DNA from: Syntrophomonadaceae bacterium
GTDB lineage: Bacteria; Bacillota; Syntrophomonadia; Syntrophomonadales; DTU052
Length of the DNA stretch: 60,922 nt
Direction of reading: 5' to 3'
Assembly: GCA_012729505.1 (NCBI GenBank)
Contig: JAAYDA010000068.1
Coordinates: 1-60,922, forward strand
The notes below the pieces were generated by a model. It saw nothing but the letters and a program-made list of their open reading frames with translations. It was not told where the DNA came from and searched no databases. Numbering within the stretch: the stretch's first letter is position 1; the number at the start of each line of letters is the position of its first letter. This document shows, piece after piece, positions 41,238 to 60,922 of this stretch. Both the position numbers and the translations under genes were made by a program.

Positions 41238-41296
41238 ATTGAAGGCAACAAACTTTGAAAAATGCAGAAGCGCATTGCTTCATTGAGGAGGTTAAA

Positions 41297-42988
41297 ATGA
41301 AGAGAATTAAGAATGGCATCATTTCTCTCATACTTATTCTATTAATCTTTGTATCAGGTATACCGGCGTATGCTTTGGAAGCGCGCCCCCAAATTACGAA
41401 GCCGGATCTCCCGTTTATCAGTGCCCACAGAGTGATCAAGGCGGAACCTGTTTATCGGGTGCTCGCAGATGACAAGTTGCATTGGTACACTACAAGCGCG
41501 GATGAATTTAATTATTGGACCGGCCTTAAAGGCATAAACAATGACGGGATTGCAGCTTACATCTCTCCCGTACCCCTGCCCTATACCGTCCCTATGTGGA
41601 ATATGGTCAAGAACAACGCGGAGCAGTATTTCGTGACAAGCGAAGAGAGCCGTGATTATGTGATCGGTAAATACGGTTACTGTGACTGCGGTATCATGGG
41701 ATATGTGGTCGCGTTGAACGACGCGGCTCACGGCAACGCCCAATTGTATCAGTGGTATCGAGGCGCTACAGATTACGTGTATCCCGCCTTGGCTGAGTTA
41801 TACGGCCTGGATGATAATAAATGGGATGCGGACCATTATTACAATACCGTGGTCGCTTCCATCAGTTCTTATAAGTACGAAGGCCCTCAGTTCCGAGTCT
41901 GGTCAGACGCTTCGACGTTGCAGGAGATCGATGTACTTTCACCCAAAGGGGGGGAAACCCTGACCGGAGGGAGTAAGGTCAATATTCGCTGGAAGACGAT
42001 GATTCCGGGCGGCAACATCAGTCTTTATTACACCCTGAATCCATCCGAAGGGTGGTCGGTAATTGATGAAGACCTGGAAAATACCGGAAGCTATGAATGG
42101 ACTGTGCCCAACAGCGCGGCAAGCAAAGCGATTGTGGAAGCCAGATGGAGCTATGAAGGGATTGACGCCAACTGTTATGACCAAAGTGATCAATATTTCT
42201 CCATCAAGTTAGGGGTAGGTACACCGATCAATTGGGCTCTTGCCTTTAAGCCGTTGGCAATGAAAGCTTTGCTGGCTCCGGCTGCGCCAAGCAATCTTAC
42301 AGCCATATCCAATCTGCTGCAGCTCAAACCGATGCTATACTGGCAGGATAATTCCACGAATGAAACCGGTTTTGTGATCGAGCGGAAATCGACGGGATCC
42401 TACGAGAAGCTGGCTCAAGTTGCCGCGGATCAGACCAAATATACCGACAGTTCGGCTGAAGCTGGAATGACCTATTCTTATAGAGTGAAAGCAGTGAACA
42501 ATCAGCTGTCTTCCGGATATTCCAATGAAGTGTCAAAGCCGGTCTTTAAAAAACCCGAAATCGTCATTCCTCAGTCCGAGCCCGGCAAAGCAGGCCAAGT
42601 AAATATGGTATTCACTCTGGATCAAAGAGATTATTCCGTAAACGGCGTGACAAAGACTATGGATGTGAGTCCCGTATCCCTGGAAGGCCGCACGATGCTG
42701 CCGATTCGTTTTGCTGCGGATCCCATCGGCGCGGAAACCGTGTGGAACGGAACGGACAGAAAGGTAACCGTAAAACTTGATAAAACGACGATCGAACTTT
42801 GGATCGGCGCGGGCATAGCCTTGGTGAATGGGGTTTCCACACCCATCGATTCCGAAAACCCGGCAGTCAACCCGATTATTATGAATGACAGAACAATGCT
42901 TCCCATGCGGTTTGTTGCAGAGAACTTGGGTTGCACGGTGGAATGGCTGCCGGCTTCAAAGCAGATAAATGTCAATTACCCGCACTGA
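41297..42988 (+). CDS. Secreted protein: DUF5648-like, fibronectin III-like and copper-amine-oxidase-N domains
   Basis: This 563-residue exported protein has a signal peptide (~1-27, ending AYA). Next comes a region rich in Tyr/Trp (VYRVLADDKLHWYTTSADEF) resembling DUF5648, then an Ig/Ser-Thr-kinase-anchor-like segment (LSPKGGETLTGGSKVNIRW, ~215-310), an FN3-like module (APSNLTAISN...YSYRVKAVNN, ~345-420), and a C-terminal copper-amine-oxidase-like repeat pair (GRTMLPIRFAADPIGAETVW, DRTMLPMRFVAENLGCTVEW). The latter binds cell-surface material in Firmicutes. ATG 41297 follows GAGGAGG. Role: cell-envelope or carbohydrate interaction, inferred. Confidence 0.8.
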   Translation: MKRIKNGIISLILILLIFVSGIPAYALEARPQITKPDLPFISAHRVIKAEPVYRVLADDKLHWYTTSADEFNYWTGLKGINNDGIAAYISPVPLPYTVPMWNMVKNNAEQYFVTSEESRDYVIGKYGYCDCGIMGYVVALNDAAHGNAQLYQWYRGATDYVYPALAELYGLDDNKWDADHYYNTVVASISSYKYEGPQFRVWSDASTLQEIDVLSPKGGETLTGGSKVNIRWKTMIPGGNISLYYTLNPSEGWSVIDEDLENTGSYEWTVPNSAASKAIVEARWSYEGIDANCYDQSDQYFSIKLGVGTPINWALAFKPLAMKALLAPAAPSNLTAISNLLQLKPMLYWQDNSTNETGFVIERKSTGSYEKLAQVAADQTKYTDSSAEAGMTYSYRVKAVNNQLSSGYSNEVSKPVFKKPEIVIPQSEPGKAGQVNMVFTLDQRDYSVNGVTKTMDVSPVSLEGRTMLPIRFAADPIGAETVWNGTDRKVTVKLDKTTIELWIGAGIALVNGVSTPIDSENPAVNPIIMNDRTMLPMRFVAENLGCTVEWLPASKQINVNYPH

Positions 42989-44411: not shown

Positions 44412-47400
44412 CTATCCCTGCACCAAGTCCCACAGCTTATCGTAACTGCTTATCACATCAAACTTGACGTTCTCGCCGCTGATGGCGCGGAAGTGTTCGC
44501 GGGCGCAGTGTGACTTCGCTTCTTCAATCTTGCGTAGCTCCATTGAGGACATATCACCCTTCGTTTCAGCGACGAAGTAGATATGTTTCACCTTGCCTTC
44601 ATAAAATGCGATAGCCCAGTCAGGATTGTATTTACCCACAGGAGTACTTATATAAAACCCCCGGGGAAGTTTGACATAGACTTCAACCTCTTCGCCATGT
44701 GCTTCCAGCTCTGCGGCAAAGTCACGTTCGTTTGTTGAATCATAAATAACATAGTCGTACAGATGCCGCTTGGCTTCAATGGCGTTTATACCTAAAGCTC
44801 CTTTTTTAAGATCAGGCTCAGTAAATATCTTTGTACTAAACACCGAGTTTAGCTTATCATAGGTGATATGTTCTATAATCGCGGTGGCTTTCTGCTCATT
44901 GATAATATTGGCGGCACGAATTATAAACTCTTCGGGGTTATCTCCAAACTGGTCAAATATGACCTTCTCTATGTTGGTCAGAATATTAACTACAGCTTTC
45001 CTTGTCAGGCCGGTTTCAGCTACGATTTTACCCACGAGATCGTAACGGACCGAACTGCTTGCTTTCATAGCGGTGTATGGCGATGCTTCCTCACGTAATA
45101 TGTCCGAACGGACAAAGGCTTCACCTGCTTTAAGCTGGTCTTTGGACTCGATAGTCTTTGTCTGCTCGCCTTTCTCCACTTTGAAATAAACCTTAGATAC
45201 TCGCAGCCTGGCATTTAATGCTGTAACAGACTTCTCGACCAGTTCATCCTCATCGAATCCGACCGTATAATAGCTTTTTCCGTTGATATGCGACCAGAGC
45301 TCTTGAAATGCGCGGCTGTTCATCTTATCCTTGTCAAGCGTGACTTCTAAATTTCTCTTGCGAGCGTCCTCCGGTTTGCCTGCGTTCGGGTCGTAGACGG
45401 AATCAAGCACAGCAATAACATCGGCGGCTCGGCCGACGGCCTCTTCTGGTACTTCCAGTGTGCCGTTTTTCTTTGCCTCGTAGTATTTCTCGGTCAGTTC
45501 ACCGCGTTTGACGTAGCCGTTTTCAATTAGGCTTTCATAGATAGCAAGGGCGGTATCCTCACCAAATTTCTCGTTAAATAATTTCGCTTCGACTTTGCGC
45601 GGACGGTCAGCGACCGCTTCGGCGAGCTCGCTCTGCAAACCCTTGGCAAAACTGTCGTAGCTTTCATTGGCAATAACGGTCAGTACATTGACATTATGAA
45701 TCTCCTCACGGCTAAGGATATTCTCGTCCATGCGCTCCCCGCCTTGATTGACGGCCAGGCGCAATCCGCGTCCAACTTCCTGGCGCTTGCGCACATCGCT
45801 GCCGCTTTGCTTCAAGGTACAAATTTGGAACACATTCGGATTGTCCCATCCTTCCCTAAGGGCAGAGTGAGAAAATATAAATCGTACAGGCTCACGCCGG
45901 TCAAGCAGACGTTCTTTTTCCTTCATAATCAAGTTATAAGCGTCAACATCGTCGGAGGTGCGTTCTCTCCTATCGCCGAGCTTGCTGTTGATCATGCGGC
46001 CGCTCTTTTTATCAATAGAAAAGTATCCTGCATGTGTACGCTCCGCAGGCATATCCTCAAGGTATTTCAGATACTCTTCGGAATCATCAAAGGCAAGCTG
46101 CATATTGCCGATGGTGGATCGGTATTCTTCCTCAAAAATCTGCGCATAAGTGCCGCCCGTAGCATTGCCCTGAGTATCGTACTGTTTGTATTTTGCTACC
46201 TCATCGATAAAGAACAGCGATAACACTTTGATACCCTTAGCGAAAAGCTGACGCTCCCGCTCAATGTGAGAGAGAATTGTTTCTCTTATTTGAATACGCC
46301 TAAGCTGTTCCTCACTGACCGAACCGATAACATCCCCGGCAAATAGCTTTTTGCCGTTGGTAAACTCAACAGATGAATCCCTGCCGTCAATTTTCAAAAC
46401 GGTATAGCCGTCCTTATACTCGGAAAGTTCGCCGGAGTTATCAAACAGGCTGTAGCCCTCGGAGACTATTCTTGTTTTAGGGCTAAATCCTGTGTTGTTT
46501 TTAATATCAAACTCTATTGTCGCGGTTGGGTTTCCTTTGGAAAGGTTTATGCTTTGCACATAGACATATCCCTCAGTGGCAGTACTACCTGAAACGGATA
46601 TGCCTTTAACCGCTATTTTCTTGACCAGGCGCTTATTATAAGCTTCCAGCGCATCAAGGCGGTATATCATATTATAGATACTATCGGTTTTATGGGTCGC
46701 CGAATAGCGGAGCGTCACCAGCGGATGAAACTCCTTGAGCCGTTCTTTTGTCACTTTGCCTTCTACAGATTGCGGTTCGTCAATAATCATGATCGGGTTG
46801 GTTTTAGCAAGAATATCAATAGGGCGGCGGGAGCGAAAATCGTCCAGTTTCATGTAGATACGCCTTGCGTCTTTGCCCCGTGCATTGAAAGCTTGGCTGT
46901 TTATGATCATAACGTTTATCGCGCTGTCGGAGGCGAAGCGGTCAATCTCAGTAAGCTGTGCGGAGTTGTAGATGAAATAACGTATTTTTTTTCCGTAATC
47001 CTCTGCGAAATGCTCCTCTGTCATCTGGAAAGACTTATATACGCCCTCGCGAATGGCTACGCTGGGCACGACAATGATGAATTTGCTCCACCCGTAACGC
47101 TTGTTAAGCTCGTACATTGTCTTAATATAGGTATAGGTTTTACCGACGCCGGTTTCCATCTCCACGGTAAGGTTATACCGTCCTTCAAGTGAGTCGGACG
47201 GTTTAATATTTCCGCTGCGCTGTATGGCCTGAATATTTGCCAAAACCTTCTCATCAGAAAGGGTCACGGGTGCGTTATTAAAACCCGTAAATTCTCGGGC
47301 AGAATCAAGTGATATCTGTCCTAAGCCGGGGTCTATCATATAAGTCGGTGCATGGAATGGTTGCCCCGCGAACACATCGCAGACAGCTAATGCCGCATCA

Positions 47401-47435
47401 GCTTGAAATTTTTGATGTCTGAATTGTAGCTTCAT
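44412..47435 (-). CDS. Type III restriction enzyme, Res subunit
   Basis: This 1,007-residue helicase-nuclease is the Res subunit of a type III restriction system. Walker A METGVGKTYT (~93-102), the DEAD-box variant DEPQS (~217), SATHK (motif III) and GRGLRLAVN (motif VI, ~580) define the SF2 ATPase. The C-terminal PD-(D/E)xK nuclease has NPDWAIAFYEG and VAETKGD (~940-965). ATG 47435 follows TAAGGAGG. It lies 12 bases after the Mod gene stop, so they are co-transcribed. Confidence 0.93.
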   Translation of the reverse strand: MKLQFRHQKFQADAALAVCDVFAGQPFHAPTYMIDPGLGQISLDSAREFTGFNNAPVTLSDEKVLANIQAIQRSGNIKPSDSLEGRYNLTVEMETGVGKTYTYIKTMYELNKRYGWSKFIIVVPSVAIREGVYKSFQMTEEHFAEDYGKKIRYFIYNSAQLTEIDRFASDSAINVMIINSQAFNARGKDARRIYMKLDDFRSRRPIDILAKTNPIMIIDEPQSVEGKVTKERLKEFHPLVTLRYSATHKTDSIYNMIYRLDALEAYNKRLVKKIAVKGISVSGSTATEGYVYVQSINLSKGNPTATIEFDIKNNTGFSPKTRIVSEGYSLFDNSGELSEYKDGYTVLKIDGRDSSVEFTNGKKLFAGDVIGSVSEEQLRRIQIRETILSHIERERQLFAKGIKVLSLFFIDEVAKYKQYDTQGNATGGTYAQIFEEEYRSTIGNMQLAFDDSEEYLKYLEDMPAERTHAGYFSIDKKSGRMINSKLGDRRERTSDDVDAYNLIMKEKERLLDRREPVRFIFSHSALREGWDNPNVFQICTLKQSGSDVRKRQEVGRGLRLAVNQGGERMDENILSREEIHNVNVLTVIANESYDSFAKGLQSELAEAVADRPRKVEAKLFNEKFGEDTALAIYESLIENGYVKRGELTEKYYEAKKNGTLEVPEEAVGRAADVIAVLDSVYDPNAGKPEDARKRNLEVTLDKDKMNSRAFQELWSHINGKSYYTVGFDEDELVEKSVTALNARLRVSKVYFKVEKGEQTKTIESKDQLKAGEAFVRSDILREEASPYTAMKASSSVRYDLVGKIVAETGLTRKAVVNILTNIEKVIFDQFGDNPEEFIIRAANIINEQKATAIIEHITYDKLNSVFSTKIFTEPDLKKGALGINAIEAKRHLYDYVIYDSTNERDFAAELEAHGEEVEVYVKLPRGFYISTPVGKYNPDWAIAFYEGKVKHIYFVAETKGDMSSMELRKIEEAKSHCAREHFRAISGENVKFDVISSYDKLWDLVQG

Positions 47436-47447
47436 CGTTGCGCCTCC

Positions 47448-49412
47448 TTATATCACCCTGACAGTCGTATTCGGCGCGAGAAGCTTGAAGATTTCGAATA
47501 CGTTTATTTTTTCGGGCGAACTGGTGAAGCTGCTGTCGCGGAACACGGCACGGAGAGGCTTTCGTCTTGCGATTTCACGCACTGCCTTTTCGTTGATATG
47601 CTCGTCAAAGCAGGCGATTAAATCACCATCGTTGTAGGTGTGGACGGTGAAGCTGTCAATCTTCTCGTGGGTGTGCGGCATAGAAAGCGGCAATCCCCAG
47701 TCGAGCAGGCAGCCGAACAGTAAATCAATATCGGTGCGGTCGGGCTTAATGTTGGATTCCAGCATCAGAAGCATATCCTGCGTGGTTTCGCCTGCCGCAT
47801 AGTACACGTCCTCCATGTTGGTGTCGTCGAGTTTGAGGACACGGAAACCGATATCCAGTATGGAATTTGGAGAGTTGAGAGTAAAGTTATTTTCGGGTTC
47901 TTCAACTCCACTCTTCACTCTTAACACTTCACTCTGAATTTTATCCCCCGCACGGCGGATACGCTCCTTGCCGATTTCACAGATGGTCGAATAACCGGCT
48001 TTATATGCTTCTGACTTTTCATCCGTTTCTTCAGGTAGCTGTACCATGATGAACTTGCGTTTTCCGCCGTCCTCAGCGTTTAGTTGCATGACGGCGTGGG
48101 CGGTGGTGGCAGAGCCGGAGAAGAAGTCGAGGACAATCATTTGTTTATCGTTAAGCAGCTTTTCCAAGAAATGAACCAACCCGGTAGGCTTTCCAAAGCT
48201 AAAGGGTATTCCGAGAGAGTTCAGTTCTTTTGTACCTTGAGAATTCGGATAGTCATAAATTACATCTTCTGGATGTAAGGTTGCTTCAATGTCTTCGTCA
48301 AAATAGACTTTCGGATATATGTTCCATTTTGACTGATTACCGTTCTCGTCAAGCAAAGGATTCTTGGCTGAGCCTTGTGTGAAAATTAGCAGGTCTTTCT
48401 GCTTCAAATAGGAATCGACTGACCATCGCCAAACTTTGTCAGCATTAGAAACTGGTTTCACCTTTGCACCGTCACATTTTTTATCAGGGAATACTGTTCC
48501 GGGAGGTATGATGAGACTCCCATCAGGTGCTTCAATATAGTATCGTTGATTCGGTCTTGAATCGAGTGACGGTTGAAAGAGCGAGGCACCACTTTTTTTA
48601 TAACGACGGCCATCTTGCTCGAATAATTCATATTCCTTTTCATCTCTAACCTTTGCGATTCCAAAATCTTGCAAAGCGGAAATGTTCTTTGCAAAAACTA
48701 CGATGTAGTCCTTGGTTGGCCTAAAATGAGTGCCTTTGTCAGATGTTCTTTTCGCAATACGTGGAACAATGGTGACGAAATTTGCTTCGCCAAAAACTTC
48801 ATCGCAAATTTTCTTCAAATTGTTTAGCTCATCATCACCAATACTGATAAAGAGTACCCCATCATACCGCAGCATATTCCTTGCCAGCACAAGGCGTGGA
48901 TAAATCATACTGCACCAGTCGGAATGAAAGCGTCCATTAGTTTCGGTGTTCTTAAACAAACGGTCGCCTTCTTCGTCGTAAACGCCTGCCGCCTCGTCGT
49001 ATTCCTCGCGGCTTTGTGCAAAACTATCTCGATATATAAAATCATTACCTGTATTATACGGCGGGTCGATATAAATCATCTTCACCTTGCCCAGATAGCT
49101 CTCCTGCAAGAGCTTGAGCACATCAAGGTTGTCACCCTCTATGTATAGGTTCTCGGTGGTGTCCCAGTTGCGGCTTTCCTCCACGCAGGGGCGCAGGGTT
49201 TTGCGGATAGGTCGCCCGGCCTCGGCAATGGCGGCACGCTTGCCCACCCATGTGAACTCATAGGCTTCATCGCCAAACACCTCATCGCCAAGCATAGAGC
49301 GCAGCAGGTCGAAGTTAACTTTGCCCTCGGTGACAACGCCGGGGAAGAGGGAGGCTAGTTTTTCTACATTTTCGGCGGTAAGGTCAGGGGATTCAAATTT
49401 CATTTTATCCAT
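47448..49412 (-). CDS. Type III DNA methyltransferase, Mod subunit
   Basis: This 654-residue N6-adenine or N4-cytosine-type beta-class methyltransferase has DPPYNTG (motif IV, ~135) before the target-recognition region (~220-400) and VLDFFSGSATTAHAVM (motif I, SAM binding, ~430) after it; this order is typical of Mod subunits. ATG 49412 follows GGAGGAAG. No homopolymer or simple-repeat tract that would suggest phase variation is visible. It works with the adjacent Res gene. Confidence 0.93.
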   Translation of the reverse strand: MDKMKFESPDLTAENVEKLASLFPGVVTEGKVNFDLLRSMLGDEVFGDEAYEFTWVGKRAAIAEAGRPIRKTLRPCVEESRNWDTTENLYIEGDNLDVLKLLQESYLGKVKMIYIDPPYNTGNDFIYRDSFAQSREEYDEAAGVYDEEGDRLFKNTETNGRFHSDWCSMIYPRLVLARNMLRYDGVLFISIGDDELNNLKKICDEVFGEANFVTIVPRIAKRTSDKGTHFRPTKDYIVVFAKNISALQDFGIAKVRDEKEYELFEQDGRRYKKSGASLFQPSLDSRPNQRYYIEAPDGSLIIPPGTVFPDKKCDGAKVKPVSNADKVWRWSVDSYLKQKDLLIFTQGSAKNPLLDENGNQSKWNIYPKVYFDEDIEATLHPEDVIYDYPNSQGTKELNSLGIPFSFGKPTGLVHFLEKLLNDKQMIVLDFFSGSATTAHAVMQLNAEDGGKRKFIMVQLPEETDEKSEAYKAGYSTICEIGKERIRRAGDKIQSEVLRVKSGVEEPENNFTLNSPNSILDIGFRVLKLDDTNMEDVYYAAGETTQDMLLMLESNIKPDRTDIDLLFGCLLDWGLPLSMPHTHEKIDSFTVHTYNDGDLIACFDEHINEKAVREIARRKPLRAVFRDSSFTSSPEKINVFEIFKLLAPNTTVRVI

Positions 49413-49429
49413 TAGTTTCTTCCTCCAAT

Positions 49430-49720
49430 TTATTCAACCGCGAAAAGCGCGAAAATTGATTTGCCGTAACAAATTATATCGGGAATGTACGCTTGTTTAA
49501 GCCGGTTGCCTTTGTAAGATAATGATAAATCAACCTGCCTTTCAAAAGGGAGGCCTCGGTTTCTCAACTCCATATCCATACACTCCTGATAAACCGCTTC
49601 CAGAAAACCGCAGCCCATTTCTTTATATACTTCAAACGCTGCGCCTTGAATCAAGTAACACTCATCCTTATACAAAATACTTTCGCGATTTTCGCGTATT
49701 TCGCGGTTATCTCCGCTCAT
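49430..49720 (-). CDS. GxxExxY-family protein, truncated
   Basis: This 96-residue frame matches the N-terminal two-thirds of GxxExxY (PDDEXK-like) proteins: GAAFEVYKEMGCGFLEAVYQECM, then YIPDIICYGKSIF. It stops (TAA) where the conserved IKAVEEL...AQLLNYL would follow. In the next frame LNKLEEETNG continues to the Mod gene, consistent with a frameshifted or replaced 3' end. The start overlaps the DUF4391 stop. It is enclosed by 21-bp inverted repeats, so it appears to be an inserted cassette rather than an original member of the operon. Confidence 0.7.
   Translation of the reverse strand: MSGDNREIRENRESILYKDECYLIQGAAFEVYKEMGCGFLEAVYQECMDMELRNRGLPFERQVDLSLSYKGNRLKQAYIPDIICYGKSIFALFAVE
49436..49708. 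repeat. 21-bp inverted repeats enclosing the GxxExxY gene
   Basis: AACCGCGAAAAGCGCGAAAAT at 49436-49456 is the reverse complement of 49688-49708 with 19 of 21 bases matching. The arms are within the first and last coding bases of the GxxExxY gene. The 273-base unit therefore has the form of a small inverted-repeat-bounded cassette. Confidence 0.75.
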
Positions 49721-50328
49721 CTCAGCCCCTCCAATTCCGCCCGCAGCCGCTTCGATTCACCGTTCAGTTCGACTTGGCGGTTAAACTGCTTCTCCCGCAG
49801 CAGCTTCTTTTCCAATGCGGCAATATCTCGTTCAAGCTTTTGCCGTCGTTTATCGATTTCTACAGCTTCCTCAATATTACCCTCGGAGCCGAGCCGTCCG
49901 CCTGAAATCTGCCGCGCCAAGTTCTCATACACGGCGTCCAAATTGAGCCCCTCAAGCTTGAGCGCAATGTTATTCATCGGCATCCAATCCGTGCCGTAAA
50001 ATGTGCCGGAGACTTCAATCTGCGCCTGAGCTTCATCACCATATACGAGAATAAACAGAATCTTATACGGTATGGCCTTAGCAATAGCAGGCAAAACGCG
50101 TTTATCAAGCTCTCTTTGGCGAAGCCGAATATCGAAAATTTGCAGTTCCTTTACTGTTTCACCGGCACTGATTGCGATTGTGCTGTCAGATAATTTGTTT
50201 CGCCAGACGACTGATTCTATCTGATCTTTTATCACATCTCGTGTCTGAGGGGTTAGCGTGGCGTTGGCATAGAGCTTTTCTTTTGCCACACGGCGATTCA
50301 CCTCGGTTGTACGGGGCAATCCTAACAT
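49717..50328 (-). CDS. DUF4391 protein
   Basis: This 203-residue protein matches DUF4391: PRTTEVNRRVAKEKLYANA at its N-terminus, IFDIRLRQRELDKRVLPAIAKAIPYKILFIL in the middle, and a C-terminal coiled coil (~150-200, KRRQKLERDIAALEKKLLREKQ). DUF4391 proteins are commonly encoded with restriction-type helicases and methyltransferases. ATG 50328 follows GAGGTGA, 4 bases after the helicase stop. It may be a targeting or assembly subunit, inferred from coupling only. Confidence 0.8.
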   Translation of the reverse strand: MLGLPRTTEVNRRVAKEKLYANATLTPQTRDVIKDQIESVVWRNKLSDSTIAISAGETVKELQIFDIRLRQRELDKRVLPAIAKAIPYKILFILVYGDEAQAQIEVSGTFYGTDWMPMNNIALKLEGLNLDAVYENLARQISGGRLGSEGNIEEAVEIDKRRQKLERDIAALEKKLLREKQFNRQVELNGESKRLRAELEGLR

Positions 50329-50332
50329 ACTG

Positions 50333-53300
50333 TCACCTCACCACGATAAAGCATATCAGCTCAAAATCATCCAGCCCATTGATGCTATTATTAAGAGCAG
50401 AGGTGCCTCCGGGACTGAATAAGCTGTCAATGTCGCTTTCCTCTTTCACTTCTATAATCGAATTTATTGCCTCCGAGAGCAGGGCGGATACAGCCCGCAT
50501 ATCTCTGCCATCTTTGGTATATTCGTTGAACTCACGGCAAACATTCATTACAGGCTCGGTTTTGCCTCGGCATAGTGAGCGTGTCTTATCAAGCAATTCT
50601 TTCGGAGAAAGGTGATCGCAAACGACTTCACCGTCTGAGCCGATATAAACCATGTAAAACGGATGCAGGCGATTCTGCATATCGATATTGACACTGTTGT
50701 TGCGGTTTTTCAACACGAAGACAACTCCCGGAGGACAATCTTCCGAGGCGGGGACAACGGCATGAAGCCCAAAAGGAACTTTATCCATATCCCCGTTTTG
50801 CTTTACATATTCAAGCAAGTCGAGGCGAAATTCATTCAACCCCAAGTCCATGATGGAAATACCCGATTGCATATCTTCTATATCCACAACTTCTTCCTGC
50901 AGTCGCTTGAGTTGCGCTTTGCGGTATTCAAGGTCGCCTTTTTCCTCGGCATTGATCAGGTCATCATCGCCGGTGGAGGTCATAACGGTAATTCGCATTC
51001 TCGTTTCAACACGGCCTTTAAGGGAGAGATATTCATCCAAATCCACATCCGGCCAGAAGTTCACGAGCTGGATTTTTTCGTTGCGGCTGCCGATACGGTC
51101 AATTCGTCCGAAACGCTGAATAATCTTCACAGGATTCCAATGGATGTCATAATTGATGCAGTAGTCGCAGTCCTGCAAGTTTTGACCTTCTGAAATACAA
51201 TCGGTTGCGATCAAGACGGAGATATCGTTTGTATTTCCGGGCATTAACAGCTCTTTGTCCTTAGAAATCGGAGAAAACAGGGTCAACACTTTATTCATTG
51301 AGGCCCGCTGACCTTTTATTGTGGTCTTACCATCAACACTGCCTGTTATCATAGCCGTATCAAGTCCATAAGTGGCTTTGACAAACTCGCGCACATGAGT
51401 ATACAGGTACTCGGCTGTATCTGAAAACGCTGAAAATATCAGAATTTTGCGGTTCCCATCGTTTATAGGATTTGTTAGCTTGTCCTCAATCAAGGCAAAC
51501 AATGTTTGGAGCTTTGTGTCATGGTCAGGTGTGATATCATCAATCATCAGCTTCAGGAGTTCAAGGGTCTCGGCATCCTCTGCGAGGCGGTCGCGCCAAG
51601 TCTTGTAATCCATATCGGAAAGGTCAATCTTGATGCTGTGTTCCGCTGCGAAATATTCTGTGTTGCGGTCGTCGTCGTCAAAGTCGGAATCGACGCCCAC
51701 CAGTTCGCGTCCTTCTATCACCGAGCCGCCACCCGCCTGTCCGGCAGGCAGGCCGCTGGCGAAAGCATCAATGTCGGCAATGGTGCCGTCAATCAGCTTT
51801 TTGACGCGGCTGACCGTAAGCCGGAAGGACTCCACGGAACTCTCAAGCCGCTTCATGAGGTTAATGCTCATCAATCGGCGGATACCCATTTCTCGACCGA
51901 CGCGGTTGATGTTGCGAGAAGTATCCACATACTTACCGAGCTGGCTCGGGAAGATGAAGTCCGTCGGGATGTAGACTGATAGATTCAGCCTCATTAACTG
52001 CTCGTAGATATCCGCGTAGTTTATTGCGCTCTCCAAGTCGGTCATGCGCGGGCGCAGGGATATGGGCTTCAGCCGTTCCGGGAACGAGCCTATTTCACCC
52101 ATATTGTAGTATTTCTCTATGTGCTTGCGGGAGCGGGCAATCGTCACGCTGTCGAGCACCTCAAAGAAGTCAAAGTCAAGGGACATCAGCAGCGAGTCCG
52201 TCGTTCGCTCGCCACCCTCCTGCTTATTCCACTGGTTGAACGCTTTCTGGGCATTTCGGAAAATCTCGTCTATCGGCCGTTTTGTCCCTAATCTTTCGTT
52301 GATGAGGGCCGGGTTGCCCTCGTAAGCGAGTTGCAGCTGGTTGCGTAGGTCAACAAAACGGTTGTTGACCGGGGTCGCGGAAAGCATGAGAACCTTCGTT
52401 TTTATGCCCATGCGGATAACGCGGTTCATTAGACGAAGGTATCTGTTCTCACGGCGGTCTTCACCGTAGACCTCGCCGCCATTTCTGAAGTTATGTGACT
52501 CATCAATGACCACAAGGTCGTAGTTGCCCCAGTTCAGCCTGTCGAGATCAAGCCCATTGGACTTGCCGCGCTCCCGCGAAAGGTCAGTGTGGTAAAGCAC
52601 GTCGTAGCGGAGGCGGTCAGAGGCTATGGGGTTATTCACATAGTTGTCCTTGAAGGTGTTCCAGTTGTCGGACAGCTTCTTGGGGCAAAGCACAAGCACC
52701 GAGCGGTTACGGTTCTCGTAATATTTGATAACAGCAAGGGCGGTGAAGGTCTTACCCAAGCCGACGCTGTCCGCAAGGATGCACCCGTTGTACGACTCCA
52801 GCTTGTTTATAATCGCCAGAACCGCGTCTTTCTGGAAAGTGTAGAGCATACTCCAAATCTTGCTCTCCTTGAAGCCGGTCGCTTCATTGGGAAGCACATC
52901 TTCGGAGATGTCCTCTAAGAACTCGTTGAAGATGTTATAAATAGCCACGAAGTAGATAAACTCAGGCGCATTTTCGTTGTAGGCTACCGTAATGCCGTCA
53001 ATGACCTGTTCGGTCACATCCTGCATCAGGCTCTTATCATGCCAAATCTGGTCAAACAAACGGATGTATTCATCCGACACGGGAGCGAATATCTTTGTCA
53101 CTGGGTTGATGATGTTGTTGCCACGCTCGCAACCGAGGTCGGCGGTTGTGAAACCATTCAGCGGCATATAGGTCATGCGGTCTGCCCCGACCACATTCAT
53201 AAAGCTGCTAATGTTGCCAGCCGTCAGGTTGGAGCGGAAATGCACTCTCTTGCGAATCCAGTCGGCGCACTCGCGGGCGATGGCTTTCTGAGTCAATTCA

Positions 53301-53587
53301 TTGCGTAGTTTGACCTCGAACTCCGTACCGTAGAGGGAACGCTCACGGTCAAGGCGGGGTATGTAGAACTCCCGCTTTTCCTTTGGCGCCTTTTCCTTAA
53401 GGAATGTCGGCGAGGTGAAAATAAAGCGCAGTTCAGCAATGCCGTCAAGCTGTTTCTTGAGGACTTGGTATGCGTATATGGAGAAACAAGCCGCCGCCAC
53501 GGACAGCTTGTCGCCCTTTTTTATTGTTACCGCCAAGTCATCCTTGACGGTTTTGCTCACGTTATCCAGCATTTCAGGCATATGCAT
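50333..53587 (-). CDS. SNF2/DEAD-type helicase of the restriction operon
   Basis: This 1,084-residue protein has an N-terminal ~240-residue unknown region, a RecA1 domain with ADSVGLGKTFTAL (Walker A, ~273), VIDESHNFR (~358) and LSATPVNNR (~402), a long insertion (~440-720), and a RecA2 domain with ATDCISEGQNLQDCD (~835) and RFGRIDRIGS (motif VI, ~868). A palindromic insertion encodes GLPAGQAGG (~616). The C-terminal ~200 residues are unique. First gene of the operon; ATG 53587 follows AAGGAG by 8 bases. Probable DNA translocase of a defence system. Confidence 0.88.
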   Translation of the reverse strand: MHMPEMLDNVSKTVKDDLAVTIKKGDKLSVAAACFSIYAYQVLKKQLDGIAELRFIFTSPTFLKEKAPKEKREFYIPRLDRERSLYGTEFEVKLRNELTQKAIARECADWIRKRVHFRSNLTAGNISSFMNVVGADRMTYMPLNGFTTADLGCERGNNIINPVTKIFAPVSDEYIRLFDQIWHDKSLMQDVTEQVIDGITVAYNENAPEFIYFVAIYNIFNEFLEDISEDVLPNEATGFKESKIWSMLYTFQKDAVLAIINKLESYNGCILADSVGLGKTFTALAVIKYYENRNRSVLVLCPKKLSDNWNTFKDNYVNNPIASDRLRYDVLYHTDLSRERGKSNGLDLDRLNWGNYDLVVIDESHNFRNGGEVYGEDRRENRYLRLMNRVIRMGIKTKVLMLSATPVNNRFVDLRNQLQLAYEGNPALINERLGTKRPIDEIFRNAQKAFNQWNKQEGGERTTDSLLMSLDFDFFEVLDSVTIARSRKHIEKYYNMGEIGSFPERLKPISLRPRMTDLESAINYADIYEQLMRLNLSVYIPTDFIFPSQLGKYVDTSRNINRVGREMGIRRLMSINLMKRLESSVESFRLTVSRVKKLIDGTIADIDAFASGLPAGQAGGGSVIEGRELVGVDSDFDDDDRNTEYFAAEHSIKIDLSDMDYKTWRDRLAEDAETLELLKLMIDDITPDHDTKLQTLFALIEDKLTNPINDGNRKILIFSAFSDTAEYLYTHVREFVKATYGLDTAMITGSVDGKTTIKGQRASMNKVLTLFSPISKDKELLMPGNTNDISVLIATDCISEGQNLQDCDYCINYDIHWNPVKIIQRFGRIDRIGSRNEKIQLVNFWPDVDLDEYLSLKGRVETRMRITVMTSTGDDDLINAEEKGDLEYRKAQLKRLQEEVVDIEDMQSGISIMDLGLNEFRLDLLEYVKQNGDMDKVPFGLHAVVPASEDCPPGVVFVLKNRNNSVNIDMQNRLHPFYMVYIGSDGEVVCDHLSPKELLDKTRSLCRGKTEPVMNVCREFNEYTKDGRDMRAVSALLSEAINSIIEVKEESDIDSLFSPGGTSALNNSINGLDDFELICFIVVR
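51733..51756. repeat. Palindromic insertion in the helicase gene
   Basis: GCCTGTCCGGCAGGC (51735-51749), with stem GCCTG/CAGGC, is followed by another CAGG. It lies in frame in the helicase insertion domain and encodes a Gly/Ala/Pro-rich loop. The form is like small palindromic repeats that insert into protein-coding genes. Confidence 0.5.
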
Positions 53588-54542: not shown

Positions 54543-55112
54543 ATGAACACTATGGCAGCACCGGCAGTACCCCGCTGGAAAACAGCACTCAACATGATTA
54601 TCAATCCAGGTGAAGTTGTTAAAAGCCAAATGACAAAGGTTCCCTGGCCCTATTCCTTAACGGTGTCAGGGCTGTCCTTCACTCTCTTTTTCCTGCAGAC
54701 CGGATTGGACCTGCAGCGGAACGGACAAATCGAAGCGTCCGGGGTGGTTCTTATGGCCATGTTGGGATTGCTTTACGGTACCGTTGGTGTGGCCTTGATG
54801 GCGGTTATGGTCTGGGCCTTATCCCAGGCGGGACAGCGAGGTCTCAACATGGAGTGGGCTATATCTGCTTTTGCCCTGGGGTATTCGGCTACTTTTATCT
54901 ATGCTCTGAGCGGTCTGGTCTTTTCCTTGGCATTTGGTTGGAAAACCGCGGTGGCCTTTGGTGTTACCGGAGTTTTATGGGCACTCAGACCTACCTTATA
55001 TACCATCAAGCAGATGTCAGGGGAACGGGTTGCATTTAGCATTGCCATGACCACCCTGTGTGGAGCGATCCTCTTGATTGGTTGGGCTTTGCTGGGAAGA
55101 TTCGGCGCTTAG
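54543..55112 (+). CDS. Polytopic membrane protein, Yip1-like
   Basis: This 189-residue protein has about five transmembrane helices (~37-57, 68-95, 105-130, 135-150, 165-186). A Pro-rich N-terminus with NMIINPGEVVKSQMTKVPW resembles Yip1-domain proteins. ATG 54543 is ~13 bases after AGGAGG, slightly long. It is the first of three closely spaced genes ending in the giant repeat protein, so it may help export or anchor it. Confidence 0.7.
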   Translation: MNTMAAPAVPRWKTALNMIINPGEVVKSQMTKVPWPYSLTVSGLSFTLFFLQTGLDLQRNGQIEASGVVLMAMLGLLYGTVGVALMAVMVWALSQAGQRGLNMEWAISAFALGYSATFIYALSGLVFSLAFGWKTAVAFGVTGVLWALRPTLYTIKQMSGERVAFSIAMTTLCGAILLIGWALLGRFGA

Positions 55113-55150: not shown

Positions 55151-55642
55151 GTGGATACTAAACTGGGATATGCCGGAGGGGCCGGATCTGACGGGGTAAA
55201 ACTATGGCCGGCTTATCTGTGTTTCATTATATTCGGGATTTTGATACCCTTCAGCCAACCGGAATTTAAATTTACTACTATGATATACTCCGTTATTGTT
55301 GCTCTTGTCGTGGGTTTACTGGCTGTGAACCTGCTGATCCTGGTATTTAACAGCGGAAACGCTGCTTTGCGGCAAACTGATGGAGGGTTTGCCCGGGAAG
55401 CGGTAGGGACGGGCATGCTATTTATGATCCCTTTTACGGCTCTGGCGATAATGGCCCTGGCAATGCTAGGGTGGAATGCGATAATGCCCTTTGCCTCGGC
55501 AGCCATTACCACAGCAGCAGCAACGGCAGGAACGGAAGCCATGAAAAGGGGCGCTCAAGGGGTGAAAAATGTAATGATCCCGTCCCTGGTAGCCATAGTG
55601 CTTTCAACAGGCTGGATGATGCTTACGGCCATTCTACCATGA
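55151..55642 (+). CDS. Small polytopic membrane protein, 163 aa
   Basis: GTG 55151 follows AGGAGGAGAA. The product has about four hydrophobic segments (~18-34, 42-70, 90-115, 120-160), small residues throughout (ITTAAATAGTEAMKRG) and a short N-terminal Gly-rich stretch. No family recognised. It is 38 bases after the Yip1-like gene and 20 bases before the giant protein, clearly co-transcribed. Confidence 0.75.
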   Translation: MDTKLGYAGGAGSDGVKLWPAYLCFIIFGILIPFSQPEFKFTTMIYSVIVALVVGLLAVNLLILVFNSGNAALRQTDGGFAREAVGTGMLFMIPFTALAIMALAMLGWNAIMPFASAAITTAAATAGTEAMKRGAQGVKNVMIPSLVAIVLSTGWMMLTAILP

Positions 55643-55662: not shown

Positions 55663-58600
55663 ATGTCGATTTTACATATAGCTGAGCATAAAAAGAGGTT
55701 AATTAACTGCGTCGTTTCGATAATAGCTTTATCACTGGTATTCACGTTGATCATGGCAAATGCTTTTAGCGGAATTGCTGTGGCAGGAAGTGTCGGAGAT
55801 GTTGTTACCCAGGTAGCTCAGGACTATTTTTCATCTCCAGATTTCGAATTTGGTACAGAACCTGCGACCGGGCTGGGGATTAAGCTGCATTCCGGTTACG
55901 GTGGGTATGCAAACGGATATGGAGGGGTGTCGGTTCTGGGTCCGACTGACAATGCAGGAATGCAGGCAATGCTTGATTATGTTGATAGTCAAACCAATCA
56001 CACCAGTATCGACACTAATAAGATGAAGGGTTGTGAAGTCAGGAAATACACCATGCTTGATGGTGCCGGAGTAGGAGTGATACTACCTGATTATTTTATG
56101 ACGGTAGAGTTTTATGAAACTGGCAACAGTACGGCGGCTGATATCCAAACCGGTCTAAAAATTGCCCAACAGACGCTGGATGGGTTGGAACGAGCCGGGC
56201 TATTAAGTCAGTCGGCTCCCGACATTGAAAAACTAGCGGAAGAGGCGCCTGAAGCCACTGTTCCAGCAGACTCCGTACCGGCAACTGCTGAACCCCTGGA
56301 GGAGCCGGTCCGCGTGGCGGATACAACTAATATTATGGCCGTTTATAACGGGCCTACGGCGCCCACCACTTTTAGCGTCAACAGTCCCCATCTGGTAACC
56401 GAGATTCATGATTATCATTGGAATGATGCCCAGGGGAAAACACCCGGAACTATCGGGTTACAGGCTCAGAATGGCCAAGTGTACGGACCCTGGCAGGCGG
56501 TAGGAACTCCGGGACAAGGGGGAGTTCCTGATGCCAACTGGCATGTATATCCTAATATCGTTATCCCGGCCGGCACCTATACAATTATTGATTCGGATCC
56601 GTCCACTTGGTCACAGAATGGAGACTCCGGCGGAAAAGGTATGTCCTACGTGATGGCAACGCCACATTTCGAAACGACCGGTGCTCTTCCCGGTGATGCC
56701 GGGGCCAAGCCGGGCTCTTATCCACCCGGGCACAGCCTCAGTCCGGCAGGGGTTGGTTCGGTGGGAAGCATACCCGGACCGTCCAATACCACCGAAGCAG
56801 TGACAGGTGTGGTCGTTCCTGGATTGATCGCGACTGCCTTAGGAGCTTTAGGCGGACTGGGCGGCGGAGGATTTATTCCGCCAGCCGGGGGAACCTCTAT
56901 GTATCCTACTGGCGGAGGATCTATGCCCGGAGCTGGCGGAGTTCCCGGAGCTGGCGGAGTTCCCGGAGCTGGCGGCGGCGCGCCGGGAATGGCTCAGGCT
57001 ACCAGTCAGTTTGGACGTCGGGGGAATAAAGGGATTAGGGTCGATACCACAGATATGCATCACAGCAGTGTGACCCAGAGTGCACCGGCAGATCAGGGTA
57101 TCTACATAGAAACAGAACGAGAAACCGGCCTGTTTGTGCAGCCGGAACCCTTTAGCAATGATCCGGGGCCGGAGATATTTATCGATACCATCGATATGCA
57201 TGAGCAGGCCATCGGTATCAGGGAACCGGGAGGAGAAGCCGGTATCTTCATCGATACTACCGATATGTTCGAAGGAACACCCGGCAAAGGAGTAGAGGTT
57301 GACCAGGGCATACTCATTGGAACAGAAGACGAAGCAGCCTTGTTTATGAAAAGCAATATGGATCTGGATATGGAAGCCGGGCAAATGAGACCGCAAGCTT
57401 TCAGTGCCAGAGAAGGGGAGGCTGGAGAAGCTCATTTTGCTGTGGCGGGGAACGACCAAGGAGCTCCGGCTGCGGAACAGCCGGAATATCTGTATACGGA
57501 TACCGGAGATGCGGAAGTCCTTCATGACTCCAGTTCTCTGGAGGACGGAACCGGAACACAAACGGTTCCCGGACCCGAAAGAGATTTTGACCAGAACGGA
57601 TTTGATGCCGAGGGTTTTGACCGGGAGGGATTCAATAAAGCAGGCTTTGACCGTGACGGCTATGACCAGAACGGTTTTGACAAAAACGGTTTCAACCAGG
57701 ATGGATTCAATGCGCAAGGATTTGATCGGGACGGTTTTGATGCCCGGGGCTTTGACGCGGAAGGCTTCGATAAAATTGGCTTTGATGCAGACGGTTTTGA
57801 CAAAGCTGGTTTTGACAAAGAGGGCTTCGACAAGGCCGGCTTCAATGTGGAAGGCTTCGATAAAGAAGGTTATAACAAACTTGGTTTTGATCAAGAAGGT
57901 TTTAACCGGCAGGGATTTGACCAGTCTGGTTTTGACAAAGAAGGTTTCAATAAAGAGGGCTTCGATAAAGCTGGATTCAACCAGGAGGGCTATAACAAAG
58001 CAGGCTTTGACCAGGAAGGTTTTGATAAAAACGGATTCAATGCCGCAGGGTATGATAAGGAAGGCTTCAATCAGGCTGGCTTTGACAAGACTGGTTTTGA
58101 CCGCGAAGGTTTCAATAAAGAGGGCTTCGATAAAGCTGGATTCAACCGGGAGGGCTATAACAAAGCAGGTTTTGACCAGGAAGGTTTTGATAAAAACGGA
58201 TTCAATGCCGAAGGGTATGATAAGGAAGGCTTCAATCAGGCCGGCTTTGACAAGACTGGTTATGACCGCGAAGGTTTCAATAAAGAAGGCTTTGATAAAA
58301 CTGGTTTTGACCGGGAAGGATTCGATAAAGCCGGGTTCGATACGGAAGGCTATGACCGGGAGGGCTTTAATAAAGCCGGCTTTGATCAGGAAGGTTTTGA
58401 TCGCCAGGGCTTTGATAAGGCGGGGCTGGACCGGGAAGGTTTCAACAAAGCTGGATTCGATACGGAAGGCTATGACCGGGAGGGATTCAATAAAGCAGGC
58501 TTTGACCGGGAGGGTTATGGACGCAATGGCTTTGACCCGGAGGGCTTTGACCGGGAGGGCTTTGATGTCAATGGTTATGACCGCCAGGGATTCAACCGTC

Positions 58601-60922
58601 AGGGCTTCGATGCTAAAGGATTTGATAAACAGGGCTTTGATAAAGAAGGCTTCAACCAGGCTGGCTGGGACCGGGAAGGTTATGACCGCAACGGGTTTGA
58701 CCAGAATGGCTGGGACCGGGAAGGCTACGATAAGAATGGTTATGATGCTGATGGTTATGACCGGGATGGTTTCAACCGGGAAGGCCAGTCCCAGGAAGGT
58801 TATGATGCCGACGGTTATGATAAAAAAGGCTTTAATGAGCACGGCTATGACCGGGACGGTTATGACCGGGAAGGTTTCAATTATGAAGGCTACAACCGCA
58901 GCGGCCGCGACCCCTGGGGCTATGATAAACAGGGATATGACAAGAAAGGTTATCACTGGAGCGGCTATAATGCCGACGGATATAATCGGGCGGGGATGCA
59001 TTGGTCAAAAAATCCTTATGAAGAAGGCAGCCCATTTAATGTAGATACCCGTAATCCTTTTGATGGCGGAATTGTTGACCTGGGCGGGAGAAGAGAAGCC
59101 TGGAATCCCACCAAACCTCCACTAGGAGAACCCTATCCTCGAACCGTGGAAAAATACGGCGCCAAACCCTGGGATGATGAGATACCGGCTCCACAACCGG
59201 AAAAACCAACAATTCCTTCAACAGAAGACTCAGGGGTTATTGGTCCTGAAGATCCCATGAACACCTTAAAACATCATGGAATCGATAATGATGTGCAGAC
59301 AGGTCAGGAGGAGAGATTCCCCGGGGATCAAATTCCGGAGACACAGTCCGGCAACACTTTCGATTATACGGATCCTGAAACAGGAGCTACTTCGACCTAT
59401 GAATATGAACCGGGATATACCGGCCCCCGGCACGGAGAACGGCAAATACTTCAGGGATCAGGCGACGGGCAGACTTATGAAATCGAATTCGATGCGGTAA
59501 AAGGAAAATGGGTCAATTCCGAAACCGGTAATGATTTTGATCCCGACCGCTTTGAGTCCTGGCAGCAGGATGTTGCTGAAGATAAGCGCCGGGCTGCTAT
59601 AGACCTGGAGAAGATGGGCAAACGCGAGGATGCCACCAGCAAGGCCATAGACAAAAACCTGGAAGACTGGCGCAAACTTGAGCAAATGCAAAAAGTAGCT
59701 GATAAATACAATATCGGAGAACCAGGCGGTCCCGGCGATGTTGACAAGGCCATCCAAAATTTAAAAGATGATATGCTGGCCGGCAAAGAACTGGATCAGG
59801 AAAAAATGGATAAGATCCGCCGGGTCATAGATAATCGCATCCAGGGTAAAACCACTGCCGATACCGGACAACGCTGGGAGGAGGATTGGTTTAAGAACCT
59901 GGGCTGGGCTCTGGAATCCAATTTAGCAACCGCCAGGGAAGTTTTCAGTGGGGAGAAAGCAGATGGCAGTATCTCCTATCTGGGCACATTAGCCAAGCTT
60001 ACCATGCTGGTCAGTACCGCCGGACTGGCTGGTCCCGCCAGCCTTACTTACGCAGCGCTGGACGGGGGAATGAATGTGGCGGAAGCCTTTTTCCGCATGA
60101 AGGATGAGATCGATAAAGGCGGATCAGATTTCAGGGCCGTTTCCAAAGCAATAGGAACATACGTTCTGGGAGAACAAATAGGCTGGCTGGCAGGCAAAGG
60201 CATGGGTACCCTGAGCAATGAATTGATGGAGAGATTCCCGGCATTTACCAATAAGGTGGCTGATGCCATTGAAACAGGGATCTTAAAGACCAGAGCTCTA
60301 AACCAGATGGGAAGCAGATATGTGGGTATGGTCAGCAAAGAATCGGCCGAGGAAGCTTTGGATCAGATCAACAAGCGGTTGGTGGATATAGGCAGCGATG
60401 AGGCGGCAAAGGGTATTACAAAGACCGCCCGTGAAAAAATCGGACTGTCAGTGGCGGATTCCTTCGATGATGTGTCAAAAGGCACTGGTAAGACTTTAGG
60501 CGCTACCGACGGTATGGCGGGCAGAACTGCAAAATCTGCGACTGAAGGCTGGACGGATGTGGGCGAAAGCGGGGGAAGAGCAGCCACTTCCGGCACTGAT
60601 GATATAGCCCGAGGCGGAGGCAAGGCTGCTTCCCAGGCTGATGCGGATGGAGTTCCGGGAACTGGAAGAGCTGCTTCTCAGGCTGATGCCGATGGAGTTC
60701 CGGGAACTGGAAAGGCCGGGGAAAATTTCAGCGACGCATCAGCGAAATCTTCCGCAACAGGCGGAGATGTCCCGGGCGAACCACCGGGAAGACCACCCGG
60801 AGGCGGAGATGTCCCGGGCGAACCACCGGGAAGACCACCCGGAGGCGGAGATGTCCCGGGCGAACCACCGGGAAGACCGCCCGGAGGCGGAGATGTCCCG
60901 GGCGAACCACCGGGAAGACCAC
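55663..60922 (+). CDS. Giant membrane-anchored pentapeptide-repeat protein, 3' end outside window
   Basis: An open frame of at least 1,753 residues starts at ATG 55663 (ribosome site AGAGGTGA). Segments in order: a hydrophobic N-terminal anchor or signal (~13-41); a mixed domain with a beta-sandwich-like part (~225-335, PAGTYTIIDSDPSTWSQNG); a Gly-rich stretch (~394-450); three DT[T/I]DM motifs (~460, 507, 530); 94 five-residue repeats [F/Y/W][D/N]xxG (642-1111); a Pro-rich linker; a coiled coil (~1296-1352); a hydrophobic segment (~1440-1465); then Gly/Pro repeats from ~1620. It recalls large surface or polymorphic-toxin-type proteins, but no family is recognised. The C-terminus, where an effector would lie, is missing. 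Confidence 0.85.
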   Translation, partial: MSILHIAEHKKRLINCVVSIIALSLVFTLIMANAFSGIAVAGSVGDVVTQVAQDYFSSPDFEFGTEPATGLGIKLHSGYGGYANGYGGVSVLGPTDNAGMQAMLDYVDSQTNHTSIDTNKMKGCEVRKYTMLDGAGVGVILPDYFMTVEFYETGNSTAADIQTGLKIAQQTLDGLERAGLLSQSAPDIEKLAEEAPEATVPADSVPATAEPLEEPVRVADTTNIMAVYNGPTAPTTFSVNSPHLVTEIHDYHWNDAQGKTPGTIGLQAQNGQVYGPWQAVGTPGQGGVPDANWHVYPNIVIPAGTYTIIDSDPSTWSQNGDSGGKGMSYVMATPHFETTGALPGDAGAKPGSYPPGHSLSPAGVGSVGSIPGPSNTTEAVTGVVVPGLIATALGALGGLGGGGFIPPAGGTSMYPTGGGSMPGAGGVPGAGGVPGAGGGAPGMAQATSQFGRRGNKGIRVDTTDMHHSSVTQSAPADQGIYIETERETGLFVQPEPFSNDPGPEIFIDTIDMHEQAIGIREPGGEAGIFIDTTDMFEGTPGKGVEVDQGILIGTEDEAALFMKSNMDLDMEAGQMRPQAFSAREGEAGEAHFAVAGNDQGAPAAEQPEYLYTDTGDAEVLHDSSSLEDGTGTQTVPGPERDFDQNGFDAEGFDREGFNKAGFDRDGYDQNGFDKNGFNQDGFNAQGFDRDGFDARGFDAEGFDKIGFDADGFDKAGFDKEGFDKAGFNVEGFDKEGYNKLGFDQEGFNRQGFDQSGFDKEGFNKEGFDKAGFNQEGYNKAGFDQEGFDKNGFNAAGYDKEGFNQAGFDKTGFDREGFNKEGFDKAGFNREGYNKAGFDQEGFDKNGFNAEGYDKEGFNQAGFDKTGYDREGFNKEGFDKTGFDREGFDKAGFDTEGYDREGFNKAGFDQEGFDRQGFDKAGLDREGFNKAGFDTEGYDREGFNKAGFDREGYGRNGFDPEGFDREGFDVNGYDRQGFNRQGFDAKGFDKQGFDKEGFNQAGWDREGYDRNGFDQNGWDREGYDKNGYDADGYDRDGFNREGQSQEGYDADGYDKKGFNEHGYDRDGYDREGFNYEGYNRSGRDPWGYDKQGYDKKGYHWSGYNADGYNRAGMHWSKNPYEEGSPFNVDTRNPFDGGIVDLGGRREAWNPTKPPLGEPYPRTVEKYGAKPWDDEIPAPQPEKPTIPSTEDSGVIGPEDPMNTLKHHGIDNDVQTGQEERFPGDQIPETQSGNTFDYTDPETGATSTYEYEPGYTGPRHGERQILQGSGDGQTYEIEFDAVKGKWVNSETGNDFDPDRFESWQQDVAEDKRRAAIDLEKMGKREDATSKAIDKNLEDWRKLEQMQKVADKYNIGEPGGPGDVDKAIQNLKDDMLAGKELDQEKMDKIRRVIDNRIQGKTTADTGQRWEEDWFKNLGWALESNLATAREVFSGEKADGSISYLGTLAKLTMLVSTAGLAGPASLTYAALDGGMNVAEAFFRMKDEIDKGGSDFRAVSKAIGTYVLGEQIGWLAGKGMGTLSNELMERFPAFTNKVADAIETGILKTRALNQMGSRYVGMVSKESAEEALDQINKRLVDIGSDEAAKGITKTAREKIGLSVADSFDDVSKGTGKTLGATDGMAGRTAKSATEGWTDVGESGGRAATSGTDDIARGGGKAASQADADGVPGTGRAASQADADGVPGTGKAGENFSDASAKSSATGGDVPGEPPGRPPGGGDVPGEPPGRPPGGGDVPGEPPGRPPGGGDVPGEPPGRP
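57586..58995 (+). repeat. 94-copy 15-bp repeat encoding [F/Y/W][D/N]xxG
   Basis: From 57586 to 58995 (1,410 bases, exactly 94 units) every fifth residue is Gly, preceded four positions earlier by Phe, Tyr or Trp, with few exceptions. Asp or Asn is the second residue almost everywhere. Units 25-35 (57946-58110) and 36-46 (58111-58275) are near-identical 165-bp tandem copies. Later units drift toward Tyr. The periodicity keeps other frames open, giving false ORFs at 57404-59044 (+) and 56848-59001 (-). Confidence 0.95.
60619..60708 (+). repeat. Two 45-bp tandem repeats
   Basis: Two 15-residue units ending AASQADADGVPGT lie at 60619-60663 and 60664-60708. They sit in the low-complexity C-terminal region of the giant protein. 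Confidence 0.85.
60760..60922 (+). repeat. 42-bp tandem repeat running off the window
   Basis: A 42-base unit encoding GGDVPGEPPGRPPG begins at 60760 and recurs at 60802, 60844 and 60886, where the window ends within the fourth copy. Copies are nearly identical, indicating recent expansion. The unit is Pro/Gly-rich and likely a flexible spacer before the unseen C-terminus. Confidence 0.9.

Follow-up and report, generated by a model that had tools for sequence, protein, structure and literature searches.

A giant membrane-anchored protein of a Syntrophomonadaceae bacterium with a 94-unit pentapeptide array and an exchangeable C-terminal domain

Pentapeptide-repeat proteins (PF00805 and PF13599) have a period of five and long unbroken arrays, and they fold as a quadrilateral beta-helix with four units per turn (PMC8145042). 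The giant protein described here contains an array with the same period, but its unit is a different one, it gives no profile or fold match to these proteins, and in the array model contacts are made between adjacent units and not between units four apart. DotG/IcmE also resembles the protein, since it has glycine and aromatic residues spaced at 5 or 10 residues and carries its repeats in a membrane-anchored protein. However, DotG lacks both the [DN] after the aromatic residue and the Gly in every unit, and the protein under study has no other part of DotG. A profile search of the repeats with PF00805 and PF13599 gave zero matches at E up to 1, while a DotG stretch used as positive control matched PF13599 at 101 bits. 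The best Pfam repeat on the array was the DotG-type decapeptide PF25296, with 26 bits (E 8.5e-6) against a cut-off of 45 and against 318 bits for the same model on a DotG stretch, and the genome search gave no PF25296 match above the cut-off. The NCBIfam DotG/IcmE model NF033900 scored 73 bits over the repeats only, with an equivalog cut-off of 750 over the whole protein, and a phmmer comparison of the array with DotG gave E 9.8e-20. It is known that repeats alone readily match other repeats (PMC11795689). Judged by these scores PF25296 is the nearest named repeat, the likeness being one of spacing, and assignment to PF00805, PF13599, PF25296 or DotG was ruled out on score. This is in line with the original prediction, made from the DNA alone, that the unit is not of the PF00805 family and belongs to no named one: the profile-HMM search of residues 642-1111 gave no strong match to a described repeat family, no curated repeat family reached its threshold, and a text search of the literature for the unit found nothing relevant.

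The window, by which we mean the whole analysed stretch of 60,922 nucleotides, ends within the giant gene (55663..60922, plus strand). The ribosome site GAGAGGTGA lies immediately 5' of the ATG at 55663, from which the frame is stop-free for 1,753 codons to the contig end at 60922, as had been predicted. The contig breaks inside a tandem repeat of the 14-residue proline-rich unit GGGDVPGEPPGRPP (60775..60921), of which a 49-residue stretch is found 100% identical at one end of another contig of the same genome, C57. Reading past position 60922 for the C-terminal domain was thus made through this shared repeat, and C57 has a 487-aa frame with the remainder of the conserved C-terminal domain of the family. 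It is followed by genes for a 370-aa protein with a C-terminal zinc ribbon, a 353-aa zinc-ribbon/membrane protein, a 419-aa membrane protein, LemA and DUF2207, which are the downstream genes of the family. The two contigs were kept as separate sequences, unjoined, and comparison with relatives of 1,892-2,403 aa suggests a full protein of the order of 2,200 residues. Upstream of the giant gene, the conserved operon begins with a small multi-pass membrane protein of 189 aa (54543..55112, plus strand), which has the same size and starts at the same place in relatives, including the array-less loci L147, L160, L161 and L163. A second one of 163 aa (55151..55642, plus strand), with a GTG start and an AGGAGG site, follows in an order that is kept in the relatives. 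Elsewhere in the window there is a Type III-like restriction-modification cluster (44412-53587, minus strand) with a ResIII/RE_endonuc protein, an N6/N4 DNA methylase, a DUF4391 protein and an SNF2/helicase protein, and also a 577-aa, probably surface-exposed protein with Cu_amine_oxidN1, fn3 and DUF5648 domains (41255-42988).

The giant protein, whose parts are all given here on the plus strand, starts with a probable signal peptide (55663..55788; hydrophobic residues 13-31, AVA/G-type cleavage site), recognised by hydrophobicity and alignment. The alignment further delimits a conserved N-terminal domain, probably outside the membrane (55789..56232), and a conserved domain with WHVYPNIVIPAGTYTIIDSDPSTWS (56275..56670) which another genome also encodes in a 1,376-aa, exported-looking protein (L149). 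Next comes the IPGP motif with a second membrane-like segment (56758..56871; residues 379-397, mean Kyte-Doolittle 1.86); the IPGP block is invariant in the alignment and is kept in array-less homologues. A linker with short G-I-[FY]-I-[DE]-T elements (56872..57585) leads to the array (57586..58995), and the array end with its cap occupies 58726..59022. The linker, domain and helical region after the array (58996..60393) are common to all C-terminal types, with 70% mean column identity. The anchor and long linkers of the original prediction are thus present.

Residues 642-1111 form exactly 94 register-locked units, each ending in Gly (94/94), whereas the longest period-5 Gly run in 2,000 shuffles of the protein was 8. 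The predicted 94 uninterrupted units and their Gly therefore stand, but the claim that each unit begins aromatic-Asp/Asn was slightly too strong. The form [FYW][DN]xxG is exact in 89 of the 94, the five other units being 57 (LDREG), 63 (YGRNG), 81 (QSQEG), 89 (RDPWG) and 92 (YHWSG). Autocorrelation from unit to unit gave weak signals only, at 3 and 8 units, and no clean higher period, and the array is acidic, with 110 Asp/Glu and 65 Lys/Arg. At the DNA level the units have diverged (self-match 63% identical) with mixed synonymous codons, and dN/dS over the last 54 units against four orthologues is 0.05-0.08, i.e. strong purifying selection. Since the units differ in DNA and codons and dN/dS is low, the giant protein is taken to be real and selected, and not the outcome of recent DNA slippage; interruption of the frame, which would have spoken against the original prediction, is not found. 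Long overlapping frames within the array (56848-59001, minus strand; 57404-59044, plus strand) were dismissed as by-products of repeat composition, the dN/dS being in favour of the annotated frame.

The giant-gene family occurs in at least 12 genera of syntrophic and anaerobic Bacillota. Matches were obtained in 23 of the 63 genomes within the class, giving 22 named loci, and the isolate Sporotomaculum syntrophicum FB has two of them (L048 and L057). The 11 aligned arrays of the family have 84-109 units, always an integer, in a register that never slips, and the alignment gaps within them are whole units. The most conserved part across the family is the array end with the cap, DPWG...YHWSGYNADGYNRxG-xHWSxNPY, which in the window reads DPWG...YHWSGYNADGYNRAG-MHWSKNPYE. 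A search with the C-terminal-domain profile detected a homologue in the complete genome G331 that has the same gene order (184-aa, 173-aa, 1450-aa and 350-aa) and no array, together with a homologous neck and an A-type domain. When this protein was used as query, further array-less homologues were found that share the N-terminal plan, the IPGP segment and the neck and have an acidic linker at the place of the array. The array is therefore an optional insert, a spacer introduced at a single site that lies after the membrane segment and before the neck. In one genome (G206, L133:4856-10600) the array consists of near-perfect FNKEGFDKAG repeats broken by a Lys/Glu-rich stretch of degenerate sequence, where the array may be decaying, and this partial irregularity argues against a strictly required rod. 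Immediately 5' of the array-bearing operon, the same genome encodes, at L166:4427-9389, the N-terminal module of the family and then an RHS-repeat protein with 16 PF05593 stretches. On contig 3 of S. syntrophicum (L057) an internal deletion has taken away most of the C-terminal domain and fused the giant gene, in frame, with the 370-aa zinc-ribbon gene that follows it.

The pentapeptide unit is not unique to this protein: zinc-ribbon membrane proteins have it, and so do unrelated proteins of phages. A five-unit pattern was present in 67 stretches in viral contigs, in unrelated proteins and with up to 114 units; these contigs contain the bare repeat and no relatives of the giant protein. A six-unit pattern was found in 9 of 399 genomes of the phylum, with 0 hits for the reversed-pattern control. 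Two phage/virus contig proteins of 1,700-2,000 aa (L074:5682-10820 and L084:8216-14203) have more than 100 [FY][DN]xxG-like units and a common C-terminal part. A protein of the viral collection (L088:48-914) combines an N-terminal membrane anchor with an [FY][DN]xxG array and matches the DotG model weakly (24.9 bits), and possibly links the unit with DotG-like proteins. A second bacterial array architecture is seen in paralogues (L040, L041, L042, L043, L136 and L023) with N-terminal zinc ribbons, about seven membrane segments and an array. In L040-L042 the array again joins the membrane part to a C-terminal domain, here with conserved Cys, His and Asp; this domain has conserved GGQCGE, NH and LDFWDG motifs and is a possible Cys-His-Asp enzyme; papain and transglutaminase were considered and rejected, there being no PDB or Pfam match.

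Three unrelated C-terminal domains, A, B and C, occur in the giant family, and the window gene has type A. Common ancestry of the B-type backbones was rejected by the AU test (p-AU 3.85e-62), which indicates that the C-terminal domain has been exchanged on a conserved backbone. In all five distinct array-bearing B loci a 271-aa partner gene overlaps or follows the end of the B gene, and it never accompanies type A or C. The array-less L160 and L163 also have diverged B domains, with diverged copies of the partner (42-51% identical). The partner family (L160:2289-3200, L163:4487-5326, L050:12263-13078) is unannotated, has a conserved LSRCPF[TS]GE...GLDGLWWN motif and probably binds or restrains the B domain. 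Type B itself shows an ordered invariant Lys-x-Lys, Asp-x-Asp and His and no match in Pfam. Its best PDB profile match, with a non-significant 14.5 bits and E 0.16, is an RTX-toxin chain, which we take to be an ExoY-type cyclase domain. An assignment to the anthrax/ExoY-type cyclases, suggested by eye, was not accepted on these values and is kept as a lead only. For type A no family, PDB profile or fold match was obtained, and none in plasmids or phages; its model has pLDDT 77 and pTM 0.75. No known toxin family matched the C-terminal domains.

Of 14 giants, 13 have two hydrophobic segments, the signal peptide and the one at the IPGP block. Lys/Arg mostly predominate on the C-side of the second segment in array-less homologues (up to 8, versus 2 acidic residues), and by the positive-inside rule the array and C-terminus would be cytoplasmic. 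In array-bearing proteins the segment is rich in Gly, Pro and Ala and flanked by uncharged residues, and may therefore not be membrane-spanning. The cytoplasmic side is thus the more likely location of the array, the flank charges being support and not proof.

Overall, our preferred reading, to which we give a probability of about one half, is that the array is a spacer or rod that keeps an N-terminal module, anchored in the membrane, at a distance from an exchangeable effector domain. Its observed basis is the array, the selection on it, the changes by whole units, the absence of the array from homologous operons, and the exchange of C-termini with a linked partner. The exported N-terminal half and the membrane segment would hold the protein in the membrane, with the N-terminus outside and the array and effector domain in the cytoplasm, and the 94 units would set a fixed, long distance. 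The helical neck would then present the C-terminal effector domain, a cartridge that species exchange with one another; cartridge A is that of the window gene, and cartridge B would bring a partner gene of its own. Besides this topology, we infer from the arrangement the shape of a rod, an effector activity and the part played by the partner. It speaks against this reading that type A, the type of the window gene, has no dedicated partner gene and no detectable fold or family, since a toxin-like effector would be unusual in this respect. The pentapeptide repeat and the swappable-tail system both appear to be undescribed.

A serious rival, which we consider possible but doubtful, is that the protein faces outward and resembles a polymorphic toxin, the array being an extracellular stalk by which a toxic C-terminal domain is presented or delivered to an adjacent cell, with the B partner as immunity protein. 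The signal peptide and huge size, the variable, recombining C-terminal domain and the partner gene linked to type B are in agreement with such a function, as is the weak RTX-toxin match of type B. RHS repeats form an extracellular stalk in other systems, and in G206 they are encoded, with the N-terminal module, next to the array-bearing operon. However, an inward direction is indicated by the second membrane segment, whose C-side flank is basic in array-less homologues; types A and C are without an immunity gene, and the family yielded no known toxin or release domain. The delivery protein of the original prediction is half retained, through the exchangeable C-terminal domain and the dedicated partner gene of one type, and actual delivery is conjectural.

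It may also be, though we would not favour it, that the array is a spacer without a fold or with loose order only, and that its predicted spiral is an artefact of repetition. AlphaFold2, run on residues 842-1140 (the last 54 units and the cap region) with 18 orthologues, gave a model with mean pLDDT 88 (90-96 over most of the array) and pTM 0.49. Every bridge within the array pairs an aromatic residue (i) with position i+6, in the following unit, giving a confidently predicted spiral with about one unit per turn. Foldseek found no PDB match to this model at E up to 10, and against viral models one 23-column match (E 0.86). The pTM value, the missing PDB match and the partly degenerate L133 array are compatible with disorder, and AlphaFold2 is known to fold random perfect repeats confidently into unrealistic beta-solenoids (PMC11795689), so the spiral should be read as a proposal. 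Over-folding of repeats is less marked in AlphaFold3 and ESMFold. On the other side, the five models agree (mean pLDDT 84-88) on units that are imperfect repeats, and the invariant Gly, the fixed register and the strong selection are not those expected of a loose spacer. A more detailed version of the preferred spacer reading, which we regard as unlikely, takes the array as a new one-pentapeptide-per-turn spiral, which would serve as a cytoplasmic rod within a transmembrane sensor-effector apparatus, as yet undescribed, of anaerobic Bacillota, with effector cartridges, one of them cyclase-like with a dedicated partner, swapped between species. With about 0.5 nm for each unit, a rod of 94 units would be some 45 nm long.

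The surface fibre of the original prediction has been weakened by the second membrane-like segment before the array and by the basic flank in array-less homologues. A fibre or adhesin with metal- or glycan-binding aromatic/Asp/Gly units, for instance in syntrophic aggregation, would suit the acidic array and the syntrophic, anaerobic relatives, but the probable inward topology, the absence of any sortase, S-layer or wall-binding signal in the family sequences, and the C-terminal exchange, which it leaves unexplained, make it quite improbable. That the array is a diverged member of the pentapeptide-repeat proteins, folded as a right-handed quadrilateral beta-helix, is more improbable still, for despite the period of five, the aromatic core position, the sub-threshold PF25296 match and the phmmer match to DotG, there is no PF00805 or PF13599 match, the small inward residue of that family would be mostly Glu in the window array, Foldseek finds no such protein in the PDB, and the predicted bridges link neighbouring units and none four apart.

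The unit is widespread in bacteria and phage contigs and has no curated family, and a structure of 20-40 units would be a key to many unannotated proteins and would bear on the reality of the one-unit-per-turn spiral. The giant family ties this unit to an operon with exchangeable C-termini and a strictly linked partner gene, and can in this respect be compared to known systems. With the ExoY-type nucleotidyl cyclases the likeness, in the order of Lys-x-Lys, Asp-x-Asp and His, lies in type B only, which the protein of the window does not have. From the polymorphic toxin systems with RHS or other stalks the giant family differs in its probable inward topology, in having no partner for types A and C and no known toxin domain, and in an operon rich in membrane and zinc-ribbon genes; it is similar to them in having an N-terminal export module, a repetitive stalk, an exchangeable C-terminal domain and a partner for one type (PMC3482391).
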